Of a stretch of DNA of 64,000 bases, positions 8,387 through 64,000 are shown piece by piece (position 1 is the first letter of the stretch; each line of letters begins with the position of its first letter). Where the stretch lies: the NCBI GenBank assembly GCA_009693785.1, contig SHWP01000006.1, positions 34,354 through 98,353 on the forward strand. The letters run 5' to 3'. Made by a program: the position numbers and the translations under genes. The stretch is from Rhodospirillaceae bacterium. GTDB taxonomy: Bacteria > Pseudomonadota > Alphaproteobacteria > Rhodospirillales > Rhodospirillaceae. Under the pieces are notes generated by a model. That model ran no database searches, had not been told where the DNA came from, and was given only the letters and a program-made list of their open reading frames with translations.

Positions 8387-9991
8387 ATGCTGCGGGGATC
8401 GCTTTTCGGATTGATTGCTCTGGCGCCCGCTTTGTCGCTCGCCCAAGTGCCAGGCGCAAATCCTGGCCAAGCCAAATGCCAAGCCGTGATGGCGCAAGAT
8501 TTTACCCAACTACCCGATGCGGCAACGGGAATTAACGGCGCAACTTTGGTGGCGCCGGAGCGCGACTTGCCAGAATACTGCCGCATCCAAGGCGTTATCG
8601 CCCCTGACGTGGTGTTCGAGCTGCGTCTGCCGACCACAACCTGGAACGGCAAGTTCTTGATGCAAGGCTGCGGCGGTATGTGCGGCATTCTCAACATGGC
8701 CGCTGCCGAGGATTCACTCGTGCGCGGCTATGCGGTGGTTAACACCGACATGGGCCACACCGGCGCGGGCTTCATCGCCAATTGGGCCTATAACGATCTC
8801 CAAGCCGAGGTGGACTTTGGCTACCGCGCCACGCATGTGGTCGCCGTCGCGGCCAAAGCCATCGTCGGGGCGTACTACGGCAAGCCCCCGGCTTATTCCT
8901 ATTTCAACGGCTGCTCCACTGGCGGTCGTCAAGGCATGGTGGAGGCGCAGCGCTTTCCCGCCGACTTCGATGGCATCGTCTCGGGCGCGCCGGTGCTCAA
9001 TGAAATCGGCGATGGCACCTTGCATTTGTTATGGAGTGCCCGCGCCAATGCAGGCCCCGACGGCAAACCGATTCTCGATGCGCGCAAGCTTCCAAAAATC
9101 CGCGATGCGGTCATAGCCAAGTGCGACGCACTCGACGGCGTGACAGACAATGTGTTGCAAGATCCGCGCCGCTGCGGCTTCAAACCCGAGGACATGCAAT
9201 GCAAGGGTGCCGATAAGGCCGATTGTCTCACCACTGCCGAAGTGGGCGTGGTCAATCGTATCTATAACGGAGCACATAATTCGAAGGGCGAGAAAATATT
9301 CCCAGGTGGTATGTCGCGCGGCTCGGAATACGAATGGTCCCCGCCGTTCGTTGGCCTGACCCAGGCCGGTGGCACCAAGACCCATGGTGCGATCCTCAAC
9401 CGCAACTCAATGATCTATCAATTCACCCAGTATCTGACGTTCTTCAATGATCCCGGCCCCAGCTACAACCCCATGACCTTTGACTGGGACCGCGATCCGT
9501 CACGCCTGATGCTGACGGAAACCATTTACAATGCGCAGAACCCGGATTTGCGCAGATTCAAGGCGGCGGGAAAAAAACTGATTCTCTATCATGGCTGGGA
9601 CGATGCAGAAATTCCGCCGGGTTTGAGCGTCGACTATTACGAGACGGCCACCAACACCATGGGCGGACCCGCGGCGACGCGCGAATTCTTCCGCTTGTTC
9701 ATGATTCCAGGCATGGCTCATTGCCGCCGCGGTGTCGGGGCCGATGGCTTCGATCCGGCGATCTCACTGGAAGCATGGGTGGAAAAGGACCAAGCTCCCG
9801 ATTCCATTCTCACGCACAAGATGGCCAAAGATCAGCCTTACGCGGGCCTTCCCCGCTTGCGCTTTCCGCTCAAGCGCGAGGACTATACCTGGACGCGGCC
9901 GGTGTACGCTTACCCCGATGTGGCGGCATGGAATGGCCAAGGCGACTGGCAAGACCCAGCCAATTGGATCAAAACTTCGCCCAGCAAGTAG
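8387..9991 (+). CDS. Tannase/feruloyl esterase family alpha/beta hydrolase
   Basis: Signal peptide MLRGSLFGLIALAPALSLAQ; YFNGCSTGGRQGMVEAQRFPADFDGIVSGAP nucleophile region and C-terminal FMIPGMAHCRRGVGADGFD typical of tannase family. Confidence 0.92.
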   Translation: MLRGSLFGLIALAPALSLAQVPGANPGQAKCQAVMAQDFTQLPDAATGINGATLVAPERDLPEYCRIQGVIAPDVVFELRLPTTTWNGKFLMQGCGGMCGILNMAAAEDSLVRGYAVVNTDMGHTGAGFIANWAYNDLQAEVDFGYRATHVVAVAAKAIVGAYYGKPPAYSYFNGCSTGGRQGMVEAQRFPADFDGIVSGAPVLNEIGDGTLHLLWSARANAGPDGKPILDARKLPKIRDAVIAKCDALDGVTDNVLQDPRRCGFKPEDMQCKGADKADCLTTAEVGVVNRIYNGAHNSKGEKIFPGGMSRGSEYEWSPPFVGLTQAGGTKTHGAILNRNSMIYQFTQYLTFFNDPGPSYNPMTFDWDRDPSRLMLTETIYNAQNPDLRRFKAAGKKLILYHGWDDAEIPPGLSVDYYETATNTMGGPAATREFFRLFMIPGMAHCRRGVGADGFDPAISLEAWVEKDQAPDSILTHKMAKDQPYAGLPRLRFPLKREDYTWTRPVYAYPDVAAWNGQGDWQDPANWIKTSPSK

Positions 9992-10001
9992 GAACACGCG
10001 C

Positions 10002-11270
10002 ATGAAACGTTTTATTTTAGCGCTGGCGATGTTGCCGTGTGCTGCATTGGGCCAAACGCCGGCATCTGCACCCATGGCGCCCGAGCAGATCAAGCAAAAG
10101 CTTGAGTGGGTGAAAGAGATCGAAGCGCAGGATTTTGCCTTCTGGCAGCGCTACGCCAACATGCCCGACTCCTCGGCGTTTCGTCAGGCGCAGGAGTGGT
10201 ACAACCCCATGGCGCTGGTGGATGGCGGCTTGCGCGCGTATCTGCCTATCGCGGCCAAAGACGAAAAGCCAACCATTGATCCAGCCGCGCTGGAAGCTGC
10301 GGCGGCTTATGCGATGGAGCGCGAGACCCAGGCTTTCATCGTCTATCACAAGGGCAAAGTCCGCTATCAGCGTTACATGGATGGTTATACCGACACTTCG
10401 GCCATTAGCTCGCACTCATGGGTGAAAACTCTGCACGGCATTTTGATGGGCTTTGCACTGGCTGACGGCAAAATCAAAAGCCTCGATGAACCTTCTGAGA
10501 CCTATATTACTGAATGGAAAAACGATCCGCGTGGGAAAATCACCATCCGTCAACTACTGTGGAATATTTCGGGCCTCGAGGACGCCGACCCGCGCAACCC
10601 CGATCCCACCACCAATCTCGGCATCCAAATCGTCGAAGGCAGCGACGTCAATGGCGCGGTGCTGGCGCATAAACTCAAATCCGAGCCAGGCACGGCGTTT
10701 AACCATAATAATGTGACCACACAAATTCTGGGCATCATCCTGACGCGGGCTACGGGTGTGCGGATCGATAAATATTTATCCGAGAAACTTTGGCGGCCGA
10801 TGGGCGCGCAACGCGGCGCGATGCGGTTGGATAAAAGCTACGGCGGCAATGTGATCTCGTACTGCTGTTTCCTGGCTGCGCCATCGGACTGGATACGCAC
10901 GGCACATCTGTTGAAGAACGACGGCAAGCTGCCCGATGGCACACAGCTTTTACCGATAGGCTGGGTGGCTGAAATGAAAAAGGGCTCAGGGCCCAACCCC
11001 AACTATGGCCTGCACATTTGGGTCGATGCCAAGTTCGAAAAACTGCGGCCCTATAACCCGGCGTTTCCCGTGCAAGCTCACAATACTCACTCCGAACCAT
11101 TCGCAGTTGATGATCTGTTTTATTTCGATGGCGGCGGCAAGGTGCGTATCTGGATCAGCCCGAAGCTTGATCTCATCGTATTGCGCATGGGTTTTCCACC
11201 ACCCAAGGGCAAGGACTTCGACGAGGCCTTCATGCCCAACACCATCATTCGCGGCATCAAGAAGGGCTAA
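10002..11270 (+). CDS. Serine hydrolase, class C beta-lactamase-related
   Basis: ATG at 10002 gives signal peptide MKRFILALAMLPCAALG; SWVK (SxxK) and FNHNNVTTQILG motif regions. The upstream extension to 9732 overlaps the preceding gene and is spurious. Confidence 0.85.
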   Translation: MKRFILALAMLPCAALGQTPASAPMAPEQIKQKLEWVKEIEAQDFAFWQRYANMPDSSAFRQAQEWYNPMALVDGGLRAYLPIAAKDEKPTIDPAALEAAAAYAMERETQAFIVYHKGKVRYQRYMDGYTDTSAISSHSWVKTLHGILMGFALADGKIKSLDEPSETYITEWKNDPRGKITIRQLLWNISGLEDADPRNPDPTTNLGIQIVEGSDVNGAVLAHKLKSEPGTAFNHNNVTTQILGIILTRATGVRIDKYLSEKLWRPMGAQRGAMRLDKSYGGNVISYCCFLAAPSDWIRTAHLLKNDGKLPDGTQLLPIGWVAEMKKGSGPNPNYGLHIWVDAKFEKLRPYNPAFPVQAHNTHSEPFAVDDLFYFDGGGKVRIWISPKLDLIVLRMGFPPPKGKDFDEAFMPNTIIRGIKKG

Positions 11271-11294: not shown

Positions 11295-11828
11295 TTGATG
11301 TCCGACTACGTTGTTCATGGGTGCCAAGAAGCGGTCTTTAGCGTCTCGCAGCTCTCGCGCATGGCGAGCCTGTATGTGGATGCCGGCGGATGGGAGGTCG
11401 TGCGGCGCGGCAATTCCGACGTGCGTCAGGCCGCAGCCTGGGGCTTGCCCGACCGCACGACGATTGAAGAAACGCTGCTACGTGCCAAGGGCACGGCCAC
11501 CGGATTTATCCGGCTGGTGAAGTTTCCCAACACTTTGGCCCAACGCCAAATCCGCTCGGGTGGCCAAGCCTGGGACACGGGTGGAATTTTTGATGTGGAT
11601 GTGCGGGTGCGCGATGCCCAGGCTGCCATGGTGGCATTGCAGGCGCGAGGGCAAAACGCGCTGCACGACCCGGTGGTGTGGGGCTTTGGGCCCATGTCGG
11701 TGCGTCAAGTGTTGATGATGCTCGATGATGGTATTTGCCTTGCCATGATCGAGCGTGTCAGTCCGCCGTTACCCCCAGCCCAAGTTCCATCACCCAATAC
11801 CTTCGGCCAAATTTCAATTCAAGCCTGA
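11295..11828 (+). CDS. VOC-family protein, N-terminal half of a probable frameshifted two-domain protein
   Basis: DYVVHGCQEAVFSVSQLSRMASLYVDAGGWEVVRRG ... CLAMIERVSPPLPP is a VOC-like module; ends just as the next VOC domain begins in another frame. Confidence 0.6.
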   Translation: MMSDYVVHGCQEAVFSVSQLSRMASLYVDAGGWEVVRRGNSDVRQAAAWGLPDRTTIEETLLRAKGTATGFIRLVKFPNTLAQRQIRSGGQAWDTGGIFDVDVRVRDAQAAMVALQARGQNALHDPVVWGFGPMSVRQVLMMLDDGICLAMIERVSPPLPPAQVPSPNTFGQISIQA

Positions 11829-12271
11829 TTGTCGATGATATTGAGGCCACGACCCAATTCCTCCGCGATGGGTTGGGGTTCAATGTGATTGTGGACATGA
11901 TCTGGAAGGGCGAGGCCGACAACGGGAATAATATTTTTGGCCTTCCCGCCAACATCGCACGCGGCACCGAGGCCAAGGTGCGCATTCTGCATCCGCAGAA
12001 AGACTTTAACGGCACGATTGAGCTGATTTCATTTCCAGGGCTTGAGGGGCAGTCGTTCGCCGGCCATGCCAAGCCGCCGAACCTAGGCGTGTTGATGATG
12101 CGCTTTCCGGTGGAAAACGTTGCGGCCTATGCCGAAGCGGTGAAGTCGCGGGGTATCGCGCTCAACATGCCGCCTATGCCCGTGACCATCGCGCCCTATG
12201 GGCAAACCAGTACCTTCTCGGTGCGCACGCCCACGGGGGCGTGGCTGGAATTTTATGAACGCGGAAAATAA
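11735..12271 (+). CDS. VOC-family protein, C-terminal half of a probable frameshifted two-domain protein
   Basis: RPNFNSSLIVDDIEATTQFLRDGLGFNVIVDMIWKG ... TSTFSVRTPTGAWLEFYERGK is a complete VOC domain; overlaps the previous ORF by 94 nt in a different frame. Confidence 0.65.
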   Translation: MPCHDRACQSAVTPSPSSITQYLRPNFNSSLIVDDIEATTQFLRDGLGFNVIVDMIWKGEADNGNNIFGLPANIARGTEAKVRILHPQKDFNGTIELISFPGLEGQSFAGHAKPPNLGVLMMRFPVENVAAYAEAVKSRGIALNMPPMPVTIAPYGQTSTFSVRTPTGAWLEFYERGK

Positions 12272-12283
12272 GGAGACTCGACC

Positions 12284-13138
12284 ATGACCACTGCCATGAC
12301 ACGCAGACAAACGGTACTAGCGGCGGGCGCGCTTGCGGCTGCAAGTGCCGTGCCTGTCCAGGCCAAATCTCTCAACCTCGATCTGACGAAGACCGTCGAT
12401 GCCTACCGCGCCTACATGAAAATGCGTGGCGCGGGCGAGGGCAAGCTCGCCTTGTGGTGGTACACGGGTACGGTGTGGTTGAAAGTCGAGGAACAACTTC
12501 CGCAACAAGTCATGACCATCGATGGCTTTAGTTTTCAACGCTTGTCGATGAAACCGGATGGCTCGCTGGTGCAACTCATGGCGGAAGCAGGATATTTTAA
12601 AGACGCGCAAGGAAACGCCATTCTCGATAGCTGGGTCAACCCATTCAACGGCGAGACATGCAAACCCCAGCATTACAAATCAAAACAAACCATCATTGCT
12701 AAGCCCGATACCTCGCTGACGGGCGAAGAAGGCGCGCGCATGGATGGCAATAACATGAAAGGCCGCATTGGTCCGGCATCCGTGAACGGCGATCAGGTTT
12801 GGATCCCGGAAAATTTTGGCGCGCGCTTTACACTGCCAAAACGAGAGAACGTCGACCCCAAGGAAGACATGGGCAACGTCTTGGCGAACGCGTCCTTGGC
12901 GGTGTTCTCAGCCAAGGTGTCGGATGTCCAAAACGCCGACATCGAATCTGCGCCCAGCACGATGCACTTTCAAAATCTTGGCGGTTGGCGGCCGTGGATG
13001 CGGTTTGGGAAAACGCCGGGTGCACAAACTTGGCAACTGTTTGGACACAAAGTAGCCAACGTCGATGCTATTCCGGCAGCGTTACGCACGCGCCTTGAGA
13101 ACGACTATCCAGGCTGGCTGAAAGATCCGGGGATCTGA
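12284..13138 (+). CDS. DUF1838-like exported protein
   Basis: Tat-like signal MTRRQTVLAAGALAAASAVPVQA; GKLALWWYTGTVWLKVE and VNPFNGETCKPQHYKSK resemble DUF1838 proteins; more distant from the tandem pair at 58-60 kb. Confidence 0.65.
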   Translation: MTTAMTRRQTVLAAGALAAASAVPVQAKSLNLDLTKTVDAYRAYMKMRGAGEGKLALWWYTGTVWLKVEEQLPQQVMTIDGFSFQRLSMKPDGSLVQLMAEAGYFKDAQGNAILDSWVNPFNGETCKPQHYKSKQTIIAKPDTSLTGEEGARMDGNNMKGRIGPASVNGDQVWIPENFGARFTLPKRENVDPKEDMGNVLANASLAVFSAKVSDVQNADIESAPSTMHFQNLGGWRPWMRFGKTPGAQTWQLFGHKVANVDAIPAALRTRLENDYPGWLKDPGI

Positions 13139-21828: not shown

Positions 21829-23010
21829 ATGTTTTCAATTTTCCTGATCGTCTTTGTCGGCATGCTGGGCACCAGTTTGCTTGCACCGCTCATCCCGTTC
21901 TATGCCCTCAGGCTTGGTGTTACTCCCGATTACATCACCATGATCATGGCGCTGTATGCGCTTTGCCAGTTTCTGGCCGCGCCCCTCTGGGGCCGTATTA
22001 GCGACGCCCGTGGCCGCAAGCCGGTGTTGCTGGTCACGGTGATCGGCGGCGGCATTGGCTTTGTCTTGCTGGGTTTGGCGGACTCGGTGTGGATGCTTGT
22101 GCTTTCGCGTATCGTGGGCGGCCTGTGCGCGGGTAACTTGTCGGCGGCTTATGCCTATGTCAGCGACATCACGACTCCGGAAAATCGCTCCGATGGTTTG
22201 GGTAAAATCGGCGCGGCCTTTGGCCTTGGCCTTGTCTTAGGGCCCGTCATTGGCGGATTTTTGGCGGGCGGCGATACGGCCCTCACAGCCAATTTTGCAC
22301 GCCCAGCCTTTGCCGCGGCAGGCTTATCGGGCTTGGCGTTTCTCACCACGCTCGTATTTTTAAAAGAGTCGAGAAAGCCGCTGGCAAACGAACCAAAGAA
22401 AAAAATCTCGCTCAACCCCTTTGGCCGCTTTGATGCCATCGCTGGCAATCCTAATCTGCTGCTTGTCGTGGTGTTGAATTTCCTGTTGGCAACGTCGGCA
22501 GCACTAAGGGAATCAACAGTGGCCCTGTGGGCGCACGATCATTTCAGCTTGGATTCGCGCGAGCTCGGGTTTTTGTTTGCGTACACAGGCGCTGTGATCG
22601 TCGTGTTGCAGGGTGCGGCCATGGGTGTCTTGTCGCGGCGCTTCGGCGACACCACAATTTTGATCAGCGGAATATTGTCTTACGCCTGTGGGCTGGCTTG
22701 CTTTGTCGTGGCCGACCACGCCGCGTTTTTGATTGTTGGCACGACCCTGAATTCTTTCGGCACGGCGGTGTTTTCGAATACCCCGTCAACCGTGGCTTCG
22801 AAGTTGGCGGGGCCCGACGAGCGTGGCTCAGTGCTGGGTATCAATCAGTCCTCGGCTAGCTTGGGCCGTTTTGTCGGGCCGATGTTTGCGGGCACGCTGT
22901 ATGCCCACATCGCCATCACAGCACCGTTTATGGCGGGCATCGGCGGCTTGGCCATTTGCTTAGGGATTGCCTATCGGCTGCGGCGCAAGCTTGCCGCACC
23001 CACGGCCTAG
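21829..23010 (+). CDS. MFS transporter (multidrug/tetracycline efflux-like)
   Basis: MFSIFLIVFVGMLGTSLLAPLIPFYALRLGVTPDYITMIMALYALCQFLAAPLWGRISDARGRKPVLL, MFS GxxxDxxGRK motif; about 12 hydrophobic segments. Start trimmed from 21703. Confidence 0.9.
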   Translation: MFSIFLIVFVGMLGTSLLAPLIPFYALRLGVTPDYITMIMALYALCQFLAAPLWGRISDARGRKPVLLVTVIGGGIGFVLLGLADSVWMLVLSRIVGGLCAGNLSAAYAYVSDITTPENRSDGLGKIGAAFGLGLVLGPVIGGFLAGGDTALTANFARPAFAAAGLSGLAFLTTLVFLKESRKPLANEPKKKISLNPFGRFDAIAGNPNLLLVVVLNFLLATSAALRESTVALWAHDHFSLDSRELGFLFAYTGAVIVVLQGAAMGVLSRRFGDTTILISGILSYACGLACFVVADHAAFLIVGTTLNSFGTAVFSNTPSTVASKLAGPDERGSVLGINQSSASLGRFVGPMFAGTLYAHIAITAPFMAGIGGLAICLGIAYRLRRKLAAPTA

Positions 23011-23369
23011 TCGGCGAGTTGCCGGTCGGCGAGGTCTTGCGAACTCACGTTCAGCGCGTCGTTTTCCAGTGCCTGAAGTTCCTGCTGCACAATACGTAAG
23101 ATTCGCGCCACATAGGCCGCATGCCATTCCTGGCGTTCACGGGCGGCGTTGTCGTCGGGCTTGAAGGCGTCGATAGCGGCCTTCGTGACCGGTTGGCCCG
23201 ATTCCATTAGGCGTTCGATCGTATCCATGCGTTCGCGCAGCACCGCCACTTCGGTTGCGACCGCCATGGTGATGGACAACACGCGCTCCACGGCCGGGTC
23301 GTCGAAGAAGTAAGGGCGCTTGCCTTTGGCTTTGGCATTGGCCAGCGTGTTGACGTCGAGGTTGGTCAT
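23007..23369 (-). CDS. Hypothetical protein
   Basis: 120-aa ORF, ATGA-type overlap with the upstream methyltransferase suggests translational coupling; no family recognised. Confidence 0.65.
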   Translation of the reverse strand: MTNLDVNTLANAKAKGKRPYFFDDPAVERVLSITMAVATEVAVLRERMDTIERLMESGQPVTKAAIDAFKPDDNAARERQEWHAAYVARILRIVQQELQALENDALNVSSQDLADRQLAD

Positions 23370-24622
23370 GGAACGTTACTCTTGGTTGCGCCGAACAAAT
23401 ACCAGTGCTCGCCCTTGCGTGCACCATCATTGGCAGCACCAGCCTTGTTCAGCTCGGGTTTATGGCGAGACAATGTCGAAGCCCAGGGTTGATATCGCCC
23501 AGGCTCAATGTCGGCTTCGCTGCGGGCCTCAAACTGTGCGTCGCGTGAAAAACCGGCGGTGGTCATCAGCTCGAATACATCCATGGTGTGAAACTTCGCC
23601 CAGAAGGGTTCGTTGTTGTACCAGGAATCCCAATCGCGCGTGAAGCGGTCCCACAGCGGAGTATCGGGGGCGAAGTTGGGTTGCTCCACATGCAACATCA
23701 ACCCGCCCGGTGTAAGCAAGTCATGGGCGCGGCGGAAGATGGTGCGCACGGTCTGCTCGCAGGTTTCATGCAGCACCATCGTGGTTTGCACCCAATCAAA
23801 ACTGCCTGGGGCAAACTTCAAATCATCGGCATCGGCTTGAACGAATTGAATATTGGTGTAGCCCATGCTCTGCGCGCGGGCGTGCCCATAGCGTAAGACC
23901 GGTGCGGCCACATCGACGGCGATAATCTCGGCATCGGGAAAGGCCGCGGCGATGGGCAGCGTGTTGACGCCAATGCCTGCGCCTAAATCAAGAATCCGTT
24001 TGGGTTGAAACGTTGGAAAGCGTTCTTTGACGAAATTGACAATGGAGCGCCCGCCCCCATCGCCATAGGCGCTCATGGATCCCGCGGTGGTGACAAACAC
24101 GCCTGCGTCGTAGCTGGCCCCCGCACCGGCATCGCCTGGCGTAACCTCGGTGTAGTAGCTGCCGGGCATCCAGTGATTATCGACCTGGGAAATGTAGTGG
24201 GGAATTTTTACATTGGCATCTAATTGCAGCGTGTTCTTGCCCGCATTGTGTTGTTGGACACGCGCGTTGAGCCGATCAAGTTGGCGCAAGACGATGTGAC
24301 GACCGGCTTGCTGGCGCATTTCCATTGTGGTGCGGCGCAAGGCCGCCCAGGATTGATAGATAGGCTCAGCGCGCATTGCTTGGCGAATCTCGCGTTGAGA
24401 AGCGAACTCGCATTGGCGGTCTTGAATCTGCTTGGGCCGCACGCGCTTTTCATAGGCAAGCTTGGTGCCAGGAAAGACCCGCTGGCCCAGAAAAACATTC
24501 AGATTGGTGAGAAAATTAAACCGCGCCGTTTCATCGTGCGACACGTCAGGCGAAGCACCGTGGCGTCCAACGCGGTCATAGGTCGGTGGTAATACGGGGG
24601 GCATCGCGGGCGGCTGTTCCAA
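23366..24622 (-). CDS. Class I SAM-dependent methyltransferase
   Basis: PKRILDLGAGIGVNTLPIAAAFPDAEIIAVDVAAPVLRYGHARAQSMGYTNIQFVQADADDLKFAPGSFDWVQTTMVLHE: methyltransferase motifs I-IV. Confidence 0.88.
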   Translation of the reverse strand: MEQPPAMPPVLPPTYDRVGRHGASPDVSHDETARFNFLTNLNVFLGQRVFPGTKLAYEKRVRPKQIQDRQCEFASQREIRQAMRAEPIYQSWAALRRTTMEMRQQAGRHIVLRQLDRLNARVQQHNAGKNTLQLDANVKIPHYISQVDNHWMPGSYYTEVTPGDAGAGASYDAGVFVTTAGSMSAYGDGGGRSIVNFVKERFPTFQPKRILDLGAGIGVNTLPIAAAFPDAEIIAVDVAAPVLRYGHARAQSMGYTNIQFVQADADDLKFAPGSFDWVQTTMVLHETCEQTVRTIFRRAHDLLTPGGLMLHVEQPNFAPDTPLWDRFTRDWDSWYNNEPFWAKFHTMDVFELMTTAGFSRDAQFEARSEADIEPGRYQPWASTLSRHKPELNKAGAANDGARKGEHWYLFGATKSNVP

Positions 24623-57583: not shown

Positions 57584-58231
57584 TTATTTTTTATCTTTGA
57601 TCTTTTCGTCGATTTTCTTGGCCAGCGCTTCGTAGCCCGGATCGCCTTCAACCTTCTCATCGTCGACGAAGAAGGTTGGCGTCGCCTGGATTTTATAAAG
57701 GTTGCTGCCGGTGTTTTGAACTTCGCGCACCGTCTTGATGATCGCTTCGTTTTTCAAACAGGCCTCGACATCGTCAGAACTCATGCCCGCCAGCAGCGCA
57801 TAACCTTTGAGCGGTTCGAGAGGCTTTTCAGAGCGAATCCAAGTGTCTTGATTCTTGAACATCATATCGATCAGCTTGAGGCCTCGGTCGCCTGGCGCGC
57901 AGCGTGCGATCACCGCACCTGCCGTGGCCAGTCCATCAAGCGGGAAGTCGCGAAACACAAACCTGACCTTGCCGGTATCGATGTAGTTTTTCTTCAAATC
58001 GCCGTAAGCGGTTTGATGGAAATGCGCGCAATGGGAACACGTCAACGACGCGTATTCGATAATGGTCACGGGCGCTTTGGCATCGCCCAGAATAAATTCG
58101 CGGTATTGCGGCCCGCTGCTTGCCGGAGCCTGTGCGGGCGCTTTGGCGTCTTGTGCGAATGCCGAGGGGGTTATGCTCAGGGTCAAAGCAGAGCTCAGGG
58201 CCGCTCCAACCAATAGATGGCGAATGTTCAC
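57584..58231 (-). CDS. DsbA-family thioredoxin-fold thiol:disulfide oxidoreductase, periplasmic
   Basis: Signal peptide NIRHLLVGAALSSALTLSITPSAFAQ; EFILGDAKAPVTIIEYASLTCSHCAHFHQTAYGDLK with CSHC. GTG start at 58231. Confidence 0.9.
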   Translation of the reverse strand: MNIRHLLVGAALSSALTLSITPSAFAQDAKAPAQAPASSGPQYREFILGDAKAPVTIIEYASLTCSHCAHFHQTAYGDLKKNYIDTGKVRFVFRDFPLDGLATAGAVIARCAPGDRGLKLIDMMFKNQDTWIRSEKPLEPLKGYALLAGMSSDDVEACLKNEAIIKTVREVQNTGSNLYKIQATPTFFVDDEKVEGDPGYEALAKKIDEKIKDKK

Positions 58232-58488: not shown

Positions 58489-59520
58489 ATGACATTTACC
58501 ACACCGTTGCGACGCCTAACGCGGACTGCGCTCGGCACCTTGAGTGCGGCGGCATTATTGGCTTCGTGTGCACAACAAGGTGGCATGGCTGCTAAGGAAG
58601 CCCCGGCCAAACAGGCTTCCGAAAAACAGGCCATGTCCAAACAAGGCCCCATGGATGCGACCCACGCGGGCAAGTTGAACCCCAATGATCCCAACGATGC
58701 CATTCGCATCGATCAAAAACTGAACTGTTCGCTCAAGCAGGGCGATGTGGTGGTCTATTGGTGGAAGGGCGGGGCGTTCAGCCGCGTGCCCGGCGAACGC
58801 GACCGGCATTTGTTCGATGTCGAGGGCATGAACATCCGCCAATGCCAGAATGTCCAAGACGACAAGCGCGGCTATGGCTTCCGGTCGGTGTCGCGCGAAA
58901 TTCTGCTCTATAAGGACGCCGAAACCGGCCAAATCTTGCGCACCTGGAAAAACCCCTGGACCGGCAAAGAGGTCGAGGTGATTCACGTCGCCAACAATCC
59001 GGTCAACATGCGCAGGCCGATGTTTGCCATGAGCGCTGACGGCAAACCCCACAAGGCCGACATCCGAATCATTGGCAATCGGGCGTGGAGTTCGGGCGAA
59101 GCGCCACTGTTTTATAAAAACCCGCTAGCTGGCGAGTATCAGGAATTCATCGGCAACGATTATCACGCCATGGAAGCCTTGAATGGCTACGTCTACACCG
59201 ATGATTTGTTGGATGCGACCAAGCCGAAACTGAGTTCCTACACGCTGTCATGGGCGCGTTTCTCGGAGTGGTTGCCCTGGATGCAGATGGGCAGCCGCAC
59301 GGGCATGATGATCTTTTCGACCGTCGGCGGGCGTGTCGATAGCTTCAAGGATTTGCCGGACTCGATCCGCAAAGAGATCGAAGCCAACTATCCGATCTAT
59401 AACGCACCGCCCCCGGTGAATGACGACCGGCCCAACGAAACCAGCTGGACCTATATGAAAAAGGTCATCGACGCCAAGCGTGCGGCGGCGCCAAAGACAA
59501 ACGCCAAGGCAGGGGAGTAA
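58489..59520 (+). CDS. DUF1838-like lipoprotein
   Basis: Lipobox-like LLASC; DPNDAIRIDQKLNCSLKQGDVVVYWWKGGAFSRVPGERDRHLFDVEGMNIRQCQ and LFYKNPLAGEYQEFIGNDYHAME. Confidence 0.8.
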   Translation: MTFTTPLRRLTRTALGTLSAAALLASCAQQGGMAAKEAPAKQASEKQAMSKQGPMDATHAGKLNPNDPNDAIRIDQKLNCSLKQGDVVVYWWKGGAFSRVPGERDRHLFDVEGMNIRQCQNVQDDKRGYGFRSVSREILLYKDAETGQILRTWKNPWTGKEVEVIHVANNPVNMRRPMFAMSADGKPHKADIRIIGNRAWSSGEAPLFYKNPLAGEYQEFIGNDYHAMEALNGYVYTDDLLDATKPKLSSYTLSWARFSEWLPWMQMGSRTGMMIFSTVGGRVDSFKDLPDSIRKEIEANYPIYNAPPPVNDDRPNETSWTYMKKVIDAKRAAAPKTNAKAGE

Positions 59521-59525
59521 CGGCC

Positions 59526-60440
59526 ATGTTGCGCAACATCCTCATTTCGACGGTGGCTTTGGTTGGCCTTGCTCTCAGCAGCGTTGCCTCGGCGCAAACC
59601 AAGCTCGACATCAAAAATCCCGACGACGTATTCAAGATCTCTCGCAAGCAGACGTGTTCGCTGGTCGAGGGAACGCCGGTTCTGCATTGGTGGGAAGGCA
59701 AGGTCTATGGCCGCCGCCCTGGCGAGAGGGACCGCCCCCTGTTCAATGTGCAGGGCATGAACGTGCGCTCGTGCAAGTTCTACAACGACCCTAAACGAGG
59801 GCCCGGCTACAAGTCGGGCTCGCGCGAGGTGATGTTGCACCTCGACCCCGAGACCAACGCCGTGTTGAAAGCCTGGAAGAATCCCTGGACCAACGAGGAG
59901 GTCGAAGTCATCAACGTTGCGAACGACCCCGTCAGCATGCGTGCGCCAGTTTATGCGCGCGATGAAAACGGAAAGCCGACCGCCACGTTCCGTTATTTCC
60001 AGCTCGATGGGGCCTACCTCAGCGGCGGCGGGGCCGCGCGGCTGTTTTATAAGAACCCCATGGCCGGCGAGTATCAGGAGTACATCGGCGGCGACTACCA
60101 CGCGATGGAGTTTGGCACCGATGCCATCAACGTTGAGCAACTGCTTAACCCCACCGCCGAACTCACCGACGCAGTGATTTCGTGGGGCCGGGTGTCGAAG
60201 TGGTTGCCGTGGATGAAGATGGGCGACCGCGATGGCGTGATCATCTATCACACGGCCGGAAAGCGGGCGTCGAACGGTTATGCTGAGTTGCCCGAACCGC
60301 TCGCCAGCGAGATCAAGAATACCTATCCGATTTACCTCGCGCCGCCGCCACTTGACGACACGCGCCCGAATGAAACCACCTGGACGGTCGTGAAAAAGGC
60401 CGTCGATAAAAAGCGCGCTGACGAGGCGAAGAAAAAATAG
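59526..60440 (+). CDS. DUF1838-like periplasmic protein, tandem paralog of the preceding gene
   Basis: Cleavable signal peptide ending SVASAQ; GERDRPLFNVQGMNVRSCKFYND and LFYKNPMAGEYQEYIGGDYHAME nearly identical to the upstream paralog. Confidence 0.82.
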   Translation: MLRNILISTVALVGLALSSVASAQTKLDIKNPDDVFKISRKQTCSLVEGTPVLHWWEGKVYGRRPGERDRPLFNVQGMNVRSCKFYNDPKRGPGYKSGSREVMLHLDPETNAVLKAWKNPWTNEEVEVINVANDPVSMRAPVYARDENGKPTATFRYFQLDGAYLSGGGAARLFYKNPMAGEYQEYIGGDYHAMEFGTDAINVEQLLNPTAELTDAVISWGRVSKWLPWMKMGDRDGVIIYHTAGKRASNGYAELPEPLASEIKNTYPIYLAPPPLDDTRPNETTWTVVKKAVDKKRADEAKKK

Positions 60441-60469
60441 CCCGACAAGTACCTAGACGCAGACAAAAA

Positions 60470-60503
60470 GAAGAGCGGCCGCTGAAATCAGGGCCGCTCT
60501 CTT
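60470..60503 (+). terminator. Probable Rho-independent terminator after the DUF1838 pair
   Basis: AAGAGCGGCC-GCTGAAATCAG-GGCCGCTCTCTT: GC-rich inverted repeat about 30 nt after the stop; weak T-tract. Confidence 0.6.
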
Positions 60504-60645
60504 GATTTCGATTTCGCGCATCCAAAGAGGTTGTTTGCCTGGCGAAACGGCTGTGGCGTATGGGCAACACATGCCGAGGAAATGGGCGCAAAGCACGGCG
60601 CTGCTGCGTCAAAATCGGAATTACATTTTATGGTAAACGATTTTA

Positions 60646-60662
60646 TAGGTAATTATTACCTA
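60646..60662. repeat. 17-nt palindrome, candidate operator
   Basis: TAGGTAATTATTACCTA: 8-bp arms with 1-nt centre in an AT-rich stretch upstream of the TonB receptor. Confidence 0.6.
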
Positions 60663-60710
60663 ATAAATTCATTCAAATCGTAATTTTACTATTATTTTTT
60701 GGTTATATAA

Positions 60711-60740
60711 GAAATTGGGGAATGATATTCCCTCAATTTC
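60711..60740. repeat. 30-nt inverted repeat/hairpin upstream of TonB receptor
   Basis: GAAATTG-GGGAAT-GAT-ATTCCC-T-CAATTTC: 13 paired bases, one bulged T and a 3-nt loop, about 80 nt upstream of the receptor ATG. Confidence 0.7.
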
Positions 60741-60819
60741 TGCAGTCGATTGTGTGATAGTGACATGCGTAAGACTGCACAGGCAGCACGACATCCGCAC
60801 TACTAAAATTGGGGTTAAC

Positions 60820-63219
60820 ATGACACGCAATCGTCTTCTTGGAACCGCAGCAGCGCTTGCCCTCGGCGCGGGTCTCAACGTTACAGCGCCAGCCCTGGCG
60901 CAGCAACAAAGCGCGCAAGCGCAGCCCATGCTGGAAGAAATCGTTGTGACGGCCCGCAAACGGTCGGAAAACCTGCAAGAAATTCCTCTATCGGTAACAG
61001 CCTTCTCGGCCAACGGCATCCGCGATCTCGATATTCGCAGTGTCTATGACCTGGTTAACGCGACCGCCAACTTCTCGTTCGATAAAACCTTTGGCCGCCG
61101 CTTCGACCGCCCCGTGATTCGTGGACAGTCGACAATTCAGGGCGATCCCAATGCCTCGTTCTTCGTCGATGGCGTGTTTGTCTCGGGCTCAATCACCGGG
61201 ACCTCGACCGATGCCCTCGAGCGCATCGAAATCTTGCGTGGTCCGCAATCGGCGCTCTATGGACGCGCCACGTTTTCTGGGGCTGTGAATTATATCTCGA
61301 AGCAGCCGACAGATGAGTTCGACGGCCAAATCAACGGCCGCATTGGCAGCCACTCCGATTATAAAGGCGCGCTATGGATGCGCGGCGCAATAGTGCCCAG
61401 CAAGCTGCAGTTTTTCATTGCCGGCAACTGGGAATACTACGGCGGCCAATACCGCAATGACCTACCGGCAGTTCCGGTTCCTGCGACCTTCATTACCGCA
61501 CCGACGCGCTCCGATACCAGCCGCGTTGGCAACGAAGACACCAAAGACTTCACCGCAAAGCTGCGGTTTTTGGCCACGGATAACGTTCAGTTCAATATTA
61601 AGGCCAACTATTCCGACACCAACGATGGACACTTTGCCAGCGTCTTTGTCCGCGGCGACGAACTCAATTGCTTCCGCCCTGGCATCGATGCAGGCACGCC
61701 CGCGACTGCGCGCGGTTATTATTGCGGCGAAATCAAGGTCGGCAATCGCAAGCCGCATTTGAACCTGCCAGACTTTGTAGACGGCGTGACGACGGCGGCT
61801 GGCACCTCTAAGCCACGTAAAGCTGGTAACCAGCGCCAGGTGTGGCGTTGGGTTGGCGACATGCAAGCCGACGTCAACGATTGGAATTTCCTGGCCCAGG
61901 CCACCTACAATACCGACACGGCGAACTTTGAATCAGACGGTGACCGCACCAGCTTGCGGCCCAACGTGGCTTTCGTGTTGCCCGCGAACGGTGCGTTCCA
62001 AACCCACGTCCAAGAAAACTATGTCGACCATTCGTTTGAAGGCCGGATCGCCGCGCCCGACCAAGAACGAATTCACGGCTTGGCTGGTATCTATTACTTC
62101 AAGCAACAATTTAAGACGCATTCGCGTTCATTTACCGGCGCCAACCCGAATTTTTCTCCGACCGGGGCTGACTACACCACCTCGCATGTCCGCAACCTCG
62201 CAGGTTTCGCGCAAATAGCTGGCGATGTGACCGACCAGCTCAGTGTCACGGTTGAAGGCCGTTACGCCGGCGACAAAAAGGATGCCTTCGCGGTTGGCGG
62301 ACGCGCGGCGTCCAAGACCTTTAAGTCTTTCACTCCGCGCCTTACGGTCGACTTCAAAGCGACCGACGATAGCCTAATCTATGCCTACGTTTCGAAAGGC
62401 AATAAACCCGGCGGTTTCAATACTGGCTTATTCAGCCCGACCGGCGTTTCAAACGCATCGTTCCAAGCCGCGATCGCCAGCAGCCAGATCGTCTTTAATG
62501 AAGAAAAGGCGTGGAACTACGAACTCGGCACTAAAAACACCCTGATGGATGGCCGCGCGACCTTGAATGCCGATGTGTACTACATCGATTGGAAAGGCCA
62601 GCAACTCACCAACATCATTAACATCACCAACCCTCAAGGCGGACCAACCACGGCGGCTATCCTCGTCAACTTGGGCGCGACAAAGGTCCGGGGTACGGAG
62701 ATTGAAGCCACGGTGAGAGCGACGGAAGAGCTGACATTGGGTTTGACCTACGGCTTGGCCGATTCATCGATCCGGGCCTATGACGACGATGAAATTCGCA
62801 TCACGACCGGCCGCACCGATCCGACGCTTGCCAATGGCGGCAATGCGAAGGGTAAACAACTGCCGTTGTCGCCGAAGCATTCGTTGAACCTAACGGCCAA
62901 TTGGCGCCAACCCTTGGCGGGCGATGTCGATTGGTTCCTTGGCACGAACATGCGCTATGAGTCCAAGAAGTACACAGAAGTCGCCAATTATCAGTGGACT
63001 GGCGATATCTATATTTGGAATGCGCGTTTGGGCGTGGAGAACGAGAGCTGGAATTTAGCGCTCTATGCCAACAACATGCTCGATGACCGCACACCAAATG
63101 GTTCGTTGCGTTTCGTTGACGTAACTTTCCCGAACTTCTCGGGTGGCAGCCGCCGTGGGTTCGACCTCGGCCTGCGACGTGGCCGCGAGTTCGGCCTGAC
63201 CGGGCAATACAGCTTCTAA
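60820..63219 (+). CDS. TonB-dependent receptor
   Basis: Signal peptide MTRNRLLGTAAALALGAGLNVTAPALAQ; TonB box/plug EEIVVTARKRSENLQEIPLSVTAFSANGI, RGPQSALYGRATFSGAVNYISK; C-terminal beta strand ending REFGLTGQYSF. Start trimmed from 60715. Confidence 0.95.
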   Translation: MTRNRLLGTAAALALGAGLNVTAPALAQQQSAQAQPMLEEIVVTARKRSENLQEIPLSVTAFSANGIRDLDIRSVYDLVNATANFSFDKTFGRRFDRPVIRGQSTIQGDPNASFFVDGVFVSGSITGTSTDALERIEILRGPQSALYGRATFSGAVNYISKQPTDEFDGQINGRIGSHSDYKGALWMRGAIVPSKLQFFIAGNWEYYGGQYRNDLPAVPVPATFITAPTRSDTSRVGNEDTKDFTAKLRFLATDNVQFNIKANYSDTNDGHFASVFVRGDELNCFRPGIDAGTPATARGYYCGEIKVGNRKPHLNLPDFVDGVTTAAGTSKPRKAGNQRQVWRWVGDMQADVNDWNFLAQATYNTDTANFESDGDRTSLRPNVAFVLPANGAFQTHVQENYVDHSFEGRIAAPDQERIHGLAGIYYFKQQFKTHSRSFTGANPNFSPTGADYTTSHVRNLAGFAQIAGDVTDQLSVTVEGRYAGDKKDAFAVGGRAASKTFKSFTPRLTVDFKATDDSLIYAYVSKGNKPGGFNTGLFSPTGVSNASFQAAIASSQIVFNEEKAWNYELGTKNTLMDGRATLNADVYYIDWKGQQLTNIINITNPQGGPTTAAILVNLGATKVRGTEIEATVRATEELTLGLTYGLADSSIRAYDDDEIRITTGRTDPTLANGGNAKGKQLPLSPKHSLNLTANWRQPLAGDVDWFLGTNMRYESKKYTEVANYQWTGDIYIWNARLGVENESWNLALYANNMLDDRTPNGSLRFVDVTFPNFSGGSRRGFDLGLRRGREFGLTGQYSF

Positions 63220-63238: not shown

Positions 63239-63273
63239 AAAAAGGGCCGGAGAGAAATCTCCGGCCCTTTTTC
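63239..63273 (+). terminator. Rho-independent terminator after TonB receptor
   Basis: AAAAAGGGCCGGAGA-GAAA-TCTCCGGCCCTTTTTC: perfect 15-bp stem, GAAA tetraloop, T-run. Confidence 0.92.
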
Positions 63274-63614
63274 TTGGGCGAGTGCCGGCATGATGTGTGT
63301 GCGATCATACGGCTATGGGTTATTTTGTATTAGGTTGCCGGAGGGAGATCTAATCTGCCGGAAACGTTCCGCTAACTGAGCATTTTCAATGCTATACCGC
63401 TCAAATGTGAGCCTGATTGAACTATGACATGTGCTTTTTCAGAATCACAAAAGCCGAATTTTCTTTATAAGCATCGTTCAGCGTATAATTTCCACTTCGA
63501 TTTGCTTTCTTTGGAGATCAGTCGCATCTTTAAACGAATTTCCAGTGCGTTCGGGGGCTACTTAAGTTATTTGCGAACCGAATAATGCAGAATCCGAGTT
63601 CAAGGAGTTTAGTC

Positions 63615-64000
63615 ATGCAAAATCAAAAGTCTGTCAGGATTTTCACCGCTGCTGTGGTGCTGACCGCCACCTTTGCCGGAGTCGCAACCGAAGCGTTTGC
63701 GCAAATCGAAGAGATCGTCGTTACCACACGTAAGCGCGAAGAAAATTTGCAAGACGTGCCCATCGTGATCACTGCGTTTTCTGCGGCCTCAATCGAGCGT
63801 AAGGGCATCGCCAGCTTGGAAGATGTCGCTAAATACACCAACGGTTTGATCTTATCCGACATTCCCCGGATGAACCCCGGCTTCAGGCAACATGGTAGGC
63901 GTAAGGGCCGCCTATTACAACTTCGGGGGTACTTTCCTGGATTTTCCGCCAAGTCCCTTCTGAACGCAGACTTCTCAGCCCGCCGATACCCCTATTTCCC
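63615..64000 (+). CDS. TonB-dependent receptor, N-terminal part (truncated by window edge)
   Basis: MQNQKSVRIFTAAVVLTATFAGVATEAFAQIEEIVVTTRKREENLQDVPIVITAFSAASIERKGIASLEDVAKYTNGLIL; open to base 64000, so absent from the ORF track. Downstream residues are atypical (see findings). Confidence 0.8.
   Translation, partial: MQNQKSVRIFTAAVVLTATFAGVATEAFAQIEEIVVTTRKREENLQDVPIVITAFSAASIERKGIASLEDVAKYTNGLILSDIPRMNPGFRQHGRRKGRLLQLRGYFPGFSAKSLLNADFSARRYPYF

Follow-up and report, generated by a model that had tools for sequence, protein, structure and literature searches.

The pairing of a TonB-dependent receptor with a PepSY_TM protein is established for uptake by HiuAB (PMC12424826), FhuA/FhuB (PMC10866019) and CrtA/CrpH (PMC12914433, PMC13038864), and where PepSY_TM proteins accompany TonB receptors, the reduction of imported metal chelates is their known or proposed role (PMC12424826, PMC10866019, PMC13038864). 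For pyoverdine, FpvC, FpvF and FpvG are the periplasmic and membrane partners (PMC6954188). Here we study a stretch of 64,000 nucleotides (the window) from a Rhodospirillaceae bacterium (assembly GCA_009693785.1, contig SHWP01000006.1, positions 34,354 to 98,353), in which two adjacent genes of the DUF1838 family, here called A and B, are followed by a gene for a TonB-dependent receptor. In the literature that we searched, DUF1838 is mentioned only incidentally, as ArtU in the aurantimycin biosynthetic cluster of Streptomyces (PMC5031334), and we found no description of the A-B pair, of the split of the family into Sec-type proteins with cysteines and Tat-type proteins, or of its receptor and PepSY_TM company. 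Several loci of the pair combine a receptor and a PepSY_TM gene as HiuABC, FoxAB, FhuA/FhuB and CrtA-CrpH do. However, the descriptions of those systems contain no DUF1838 pair, and in the window the PepSY_TM gene is unlinked. The pyoverdine system FpvA/FpvC-FpvF/FpvG (PMC6954188) may follow the same logic as we propose, with a receptor, periplasmic partners and an inner-membrane PepSY_TM protein, by analogy only.

We read the locus as a module for TonB-dependent uptake, with A and B handling an imported compound in the periplasm, and assign this reading a probability of roughly 0.45. The receptor would carry the compound through the outer membrane. A and B would be exported beta-barrel proteins, A probably anchored as a lipoprotein and B soluble, and would bind or process the compound in the periplasm as obligate partners. 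Electrons may then come, in several lineages, from a PepSY_TM or cytochrome-b561-type protein of the inner membrane, as in the known ferrisiderophore systems and in proposed copper systems. The cargo best matching the neighbouring genes would be a redox-active chelate, which is a weak step of the scheme, and the order of the steps is one that we infer. We computed the pair identity, the fixed gene order, the A and B clades, the receptor linkage and clade, the PepSY_TM association, the cysteine pair and the barrel model. An earlier note on this DNA had described two paralogs with shared motifs, a receptor after them on the same strand, and a distant relative beside a tannase-type esterase and a serine hydrolase; all of these were found where it had placed them (Table 1). 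Its proposal of an uptake or modification system gains from the recurrent receptor linkage reported below, although that linkage is not universal and the handling of a substrate is conjecture. The genome-wide expansion of the family, the fixed A-B order and the PepSY_TM and CpeT neighbours go beyond what the earlier note had seen.

Membership in PF08894 was defined by a score above the gathering cut-off of 25 bits, and the three DUF1838 proteins of the window reach 238.3, 193 and 74.8 bits. A and B are 46% identical. Because only 5 bp separate their genes, the two likely form one transcription unit. A FastTree phylogeny groups the 5' members of 15 tandem pairs in a single clade (15 rows, support 94), with the 5' member of locus L087 just outside it, and the 3' members in a second clade (17 rows, support 99; one single gene included). 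The A-B order is never reversed, on contigs that are alpha-, beta- and gammaproteobacterial and acidobacterial, and within the window's family three genera keep the pair at the smc/dsbA site. A and B share their core residues, and two cysteines, 39 residues apart (Cys44/Cys83 in B), occur without exception in the A proteins (16/16) and in the B proteins (16/16). The signal sequence of A contains a lipobox-like LASC and B starts with a Sec-type signal peptide (AxA). Of 131 DUF1838 proteins, 87 carry the cysteine pair but no twin-arginine motif, 24 carry that motif but lack at least one of the cysteines, 19 have neither feature and one has both. As the cysteine pair and the motif nearly exclude each other, we read the family as two putative export classes, one Sec-dependent with a probable disulfide and one Tat-dependent without it. 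The distant paralog of the window is without the cysteine pair. A Vicinamibacterales contig (L100:4623-6456) carries a tandem of DUF1838 genes that both lack the cysteines and fall outside the A-B clades.

Table 1. Positions of the pair, its receptor and other features, counted from the first letter of the window
Feature	Position	Strand	Evidence or remark
DUF1838-A	58489..59520	+	first member of pair; PF08894 E 1.3e-70, A clade
DUF1838-B	59526..60440	+	second member of pair; PF08894 E 8.6e-57, B clade
terminator-like stem-loop between pair and receptor	60472..60500	+	read directly in sequence
TonB-dependent receptor, 799 aa from ATG 60820	60820..63219	+	PF07715 and PF00593; clade of A-B-pair receptors
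terminator-like stem-loop 3' of receptor	about 63240..63275	+	read directly in sequence
second TonB receptor, N-terminus only	63615..64000	+	named by TonB-box-like start only
DsbA-like thioredoxin, divergent from pair	57584..58231	-	PF13462; synteny
distant Tat-type DUF1838 paralog	12284..13138	+	PF08894 E 1.1e-20; TRRQTVLA twin-arginine signal
tannase/feruloyl esterase family protein	8411..9991 (alternative start 8387)	+	PF07519 E 2.6e-115
beta-lactamase-fold serine hydrolase	10002..11270	+	PF00144
glyoxalase-like protein	11735-12271		beside distant paralog

The linkage to receptors was counted in 79 loci from other genomes, in which genes were called and ordered by their distance from DUF1838. 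At distance 1, 17 of 154 genes (11%) were receptors, and at distances 1-2 there were 24/287 compared to 9/367 (2.5%) at distances 5-8 (p 9e-4, which is optimistic as the loci are mutually related). With plasmid loci included, most of them unannotated matches, a receptor lies no more than two genes away in 26/77 loci, on either side and on either strand, and this variation therefore points to repeated linkage. In the independently annotated plasmid of Novosphingobium sp. P6W the order is TonB receptor, DUF1838, DUF1838, serine hydrolase; its tandem falls outside the A-B clades. The window's own genome has four receptor-adjacent sites against 1.3 expected (p 0.04), with p between 0.03 and 0.12 depending on the distance used. 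The arrangement recurs in distantly related bacteria. The earlier note had staked its proposal beforehand on such a linkage in other genomes, and it is indeed enriched at distances 1-2.

Both receptor domains score over their cut-offs (Plug PF07715 58 bits, barrel PF00593 121.5 bits). The likely start is the ATG at 60820, which opens a signal peptide read by eye as MTRNRLLGTAAALALG...APALAQ; it replaces a TTG at 60715. One subclade (9 rows, support 93) takes in the receptors that neighbour the pair in the window and at loci L078, L079, L084, L089, L090, L092 and L094. We also found that a PepSY_TM gene of the ferrisiderophore-reductase type lies within two genes of DUF1838 in 6/15 pair loci (L082, L084 as a fragment, L087, L089, L090 and L094) compared to 1/84 others (p 3e-5). 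The search model came from pair loci, and a check with Pfam added L139, the one among the 84. At L092 a cytochrome b561 gene stands near the pair instead. In G189, A, B, receptor and PepSY_TM follow one another in this order, contiguous on one strand, and PepSY_TM and receptor are also linked at L089 and L094. The contig of L090 has the same genes as G189, which belongs to the window's own family, so that L090 does not count here as a further phylum; its GenBank record (CANJPQ010000036.1), titled Candidatus Marinimicrobia, is probably mislabelled or misbinned.

Several observations weigh against an uptake module. About 380 bp separate the pair from the receptor, and this gap holds a stem-loop with the arms AGAGCGGCC/GGCCGCTCT and a loop of 11 nt. 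Equivalent stems in the relatives L078 and L079 have changed arms with the pairing kept. Because of this stem-loop, pair and receptor are neighbours that are probably transcribed separately. An alignment of the region 5' of the receptor showed an AT-rich sequence with no shared motif that could be a conserved operator (no iron or copper operator model was used). In one sister genus, the pair stands at the smc/dsbA site of five genomes without a receptor, and most DUF1838 genes of the window genome have no receptor nearby. The window receptor groups with a paralog on contig C38 and is not an ortholog of the L078 and L079 receptors at the same site, which suggests that the receptor was exchanged beside a stable pair. 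In the window no PepSY_TM gene lies near the pair, and the coupling of PepSY_TM with the receptor is absent here; the genome does carry one of the same subfamily (E 4e-180) at C38:14366-15913, by DUF1775 and CobW genes, which speaks for the module. Finally, pairs also occur by UbiD (L085, L086), CpeT (L088, L089, L091, L094), VOC and amidohydrolase genes, and these neighbours would suit organic substrates.

Some of these points would fit a neighbourhood that is incidental, in a genome rich in both families and with a gene order that has no functional meaning: the enrichment within the own genome is modest when taken alone, the transcription units are separate and one genus keeps the pair without a receptor. 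We consider this improbable, since the arrangement recurs in many lineages, on both sides and both strands, and since one receptor clade is specific to pair loci. At its downstream end the window stops with C60:98353, the last base of contig C60. The truncated receptor reported there by the earlier note is real as a fragment; it is cut by the contig end and need not be degenerate. The fragment has no Pfam match at 0.001, and the two nearest relatives have no second receptor 3' of the first.

The predicted structures bear on the role of A and B inside such a module. AlphaFold2 models of B (mean predicted local distance difference test score 92.7) and of the Tat-type paralog (12365-13135; mean 89.7) both consist mainly of antiparallel beta strands and agree in strand order, and the confident model predicts a beta-barrel for DUF1838. 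Sequence searches of the PDB, with DUF1838 proteins singly and as a profile, gave nothing significant, and Foldseek against the PDB and viral structures gave no convincing relative. The best Foldseek matches of the two models are weak: LmcA/LolA/MTP lipid carriers, membrane-type barrels, PsbO and DynF, with template-modelling scores (TM-scores) that mostly do not exceed about 0.35 and root-mean-square deviations mostly above 8 Å. For LmcA the E-value is 7e-4 but the TM-score is 0.28-0.32, and the profile has no significant PDB sequence match. All of these are open or closed beta-barrels, and their scores are too low to place DUF1838 in one of these folds. The models suggest a fold with a cavity. 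Because many charged residues are conserved, an enzyme may fit too.

The main rival to an uptake module takes up this point: DUF1838 proteins would be periplasmic catabolic enzymes (hydrolases, lyases or isomerases) whose substrates are varied compounds from plants or algae, with about 25 paralogs for different substrates and the receptor as an entry port only. The conserved charged residues K41, R63, E67, R81, R100, E101, D107, E195 and R222 are odd for a plain lipid carrier. The distant paralog sits by the tannase, the serine hydrolase and the VOC protein, and other DUF1838 genes of the same genome have as neighbours three serine hydrolases, a VOC gene, binding proteins of peptide-type ATP-binding cassette transporters, methyltransferases and DUF885. 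Elsewhere the neighbours include MDR reductase, aldehyde dehydrogenase (ALDH), nitrilase, UbiD, HMG-CoA-lyase and CoA-transferase homologs. The serine hydrolase at the end of the Novosphingobium plasmid order and the place of ArtU in the aurantimycin cluster (PMC5031334) point in the same direction. We found no catalytic motif or fold match, though, and the concentration of PepSY_TM at the pair and the pair-specific receptor clade would be left unexplained, so that we regard general catabolism as rather unlikely. In Gammaproteobacteria (L134, L144, L149, L151) a single DUF1838 gene has a conserved block of four to five genes (c60-c64) directly upstream and an ALDH-family gene after it.

Another set of neighbours raises the question of tetrapyrroles. 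Homologs of CpeT/CpcT, the phycobiliprotein lyase family, make up 15/287 genes within 2 of DUF1838 compared to 2/367 at 5-8, about a tenfold difference. Many of these neighbours have signal peptides, and their profile matches the CpcT structure 4o4o (E 2e-18). The window genome has eleven such genes, and 15/15 CpeT genomes of the order fall among its 17 DUF1838 genomes. DUF1838 and CpeT homologs might jointly handle tetrapyrroles or bilins from phototrophs. CpeT is not adjacent to the window's pair, however, and the overlap in the order comes mostly from one genome family and may be one shared history; the phylum sample adds one genome with both. The CpcT/CpeT lyases are also a different family: PF06206 was not found in the DUF1838 proteins themselves, for which PF08894 is the sole Pfam match. 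We give this explanation little credence. We would also treat as a long shot the boldest form of our own reading, in which A and B are a new type of two-protein periplasmic relay with a dedicated receptor, a heme-type PepSY_TM reductase and sometimes an exported CpcT-like protein, which strips or remodels a metal-chelate or tetrapyrrole and for which one alphaproteobacterial family expanded the underlying families to tens of copies. The CpeT homologs of this non-cyanobacterial genome lie on contigs C1, C2, C10, C36, C45, C47, C55 and C69, and on C36 a stretch of ~10 kb holds CpeT, DUF1838, two receptors and a gene resembling serine hydrolases. Elsewhere in the window (23007-24544, minus strand) the gene of a 120-aa protein with a weak HTH_25 match is paired with that of a 392-aa methyltransferase. 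Loci of Flavobacteriaceae (L114, L118, L125, L126, L135, L136, L141) have such a pair near DUF1838 and also hold hydantoinase-B-like, CpeT, VOC and peroxiredoxin-like genes.

The genome of the window (2.95 Mb in 72 contigs, 86% complete) contains ~25 DUF1838 genes, 34 listed TonB receptor plugs and the cut one (~35) and 11 CpeT/CpcT homologs. Across the order DUF1838 was found in 17/281 genomes, all of one family; a first look gave between 4 and 52 candidates per genome, and no more than nine of them were scored. Own genome included, there were 6/387 genomes in the class and 5/398 in the phylum sample. Because so few genomes there carry DUF1838, the expansion belongs to one family. Profile scans with NCBIfam and PADLOC gave no match for DUF1838.

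For DUF1838, a family without known function, a first concrete frame that can be tested comes from the conserved pair, its separate receptor clade and a redox partner. Among cultivable relatives, Kordiimonas carries the pair, and other loci that join DUF1838 with a receptor occur in Niveispirillum, Brevundimonas and Novosphingobium. The presence of about 25 copies in a 2.9 Mb genome suggests that much of the substrate range of this lineage rests on a family that has not been assayed.

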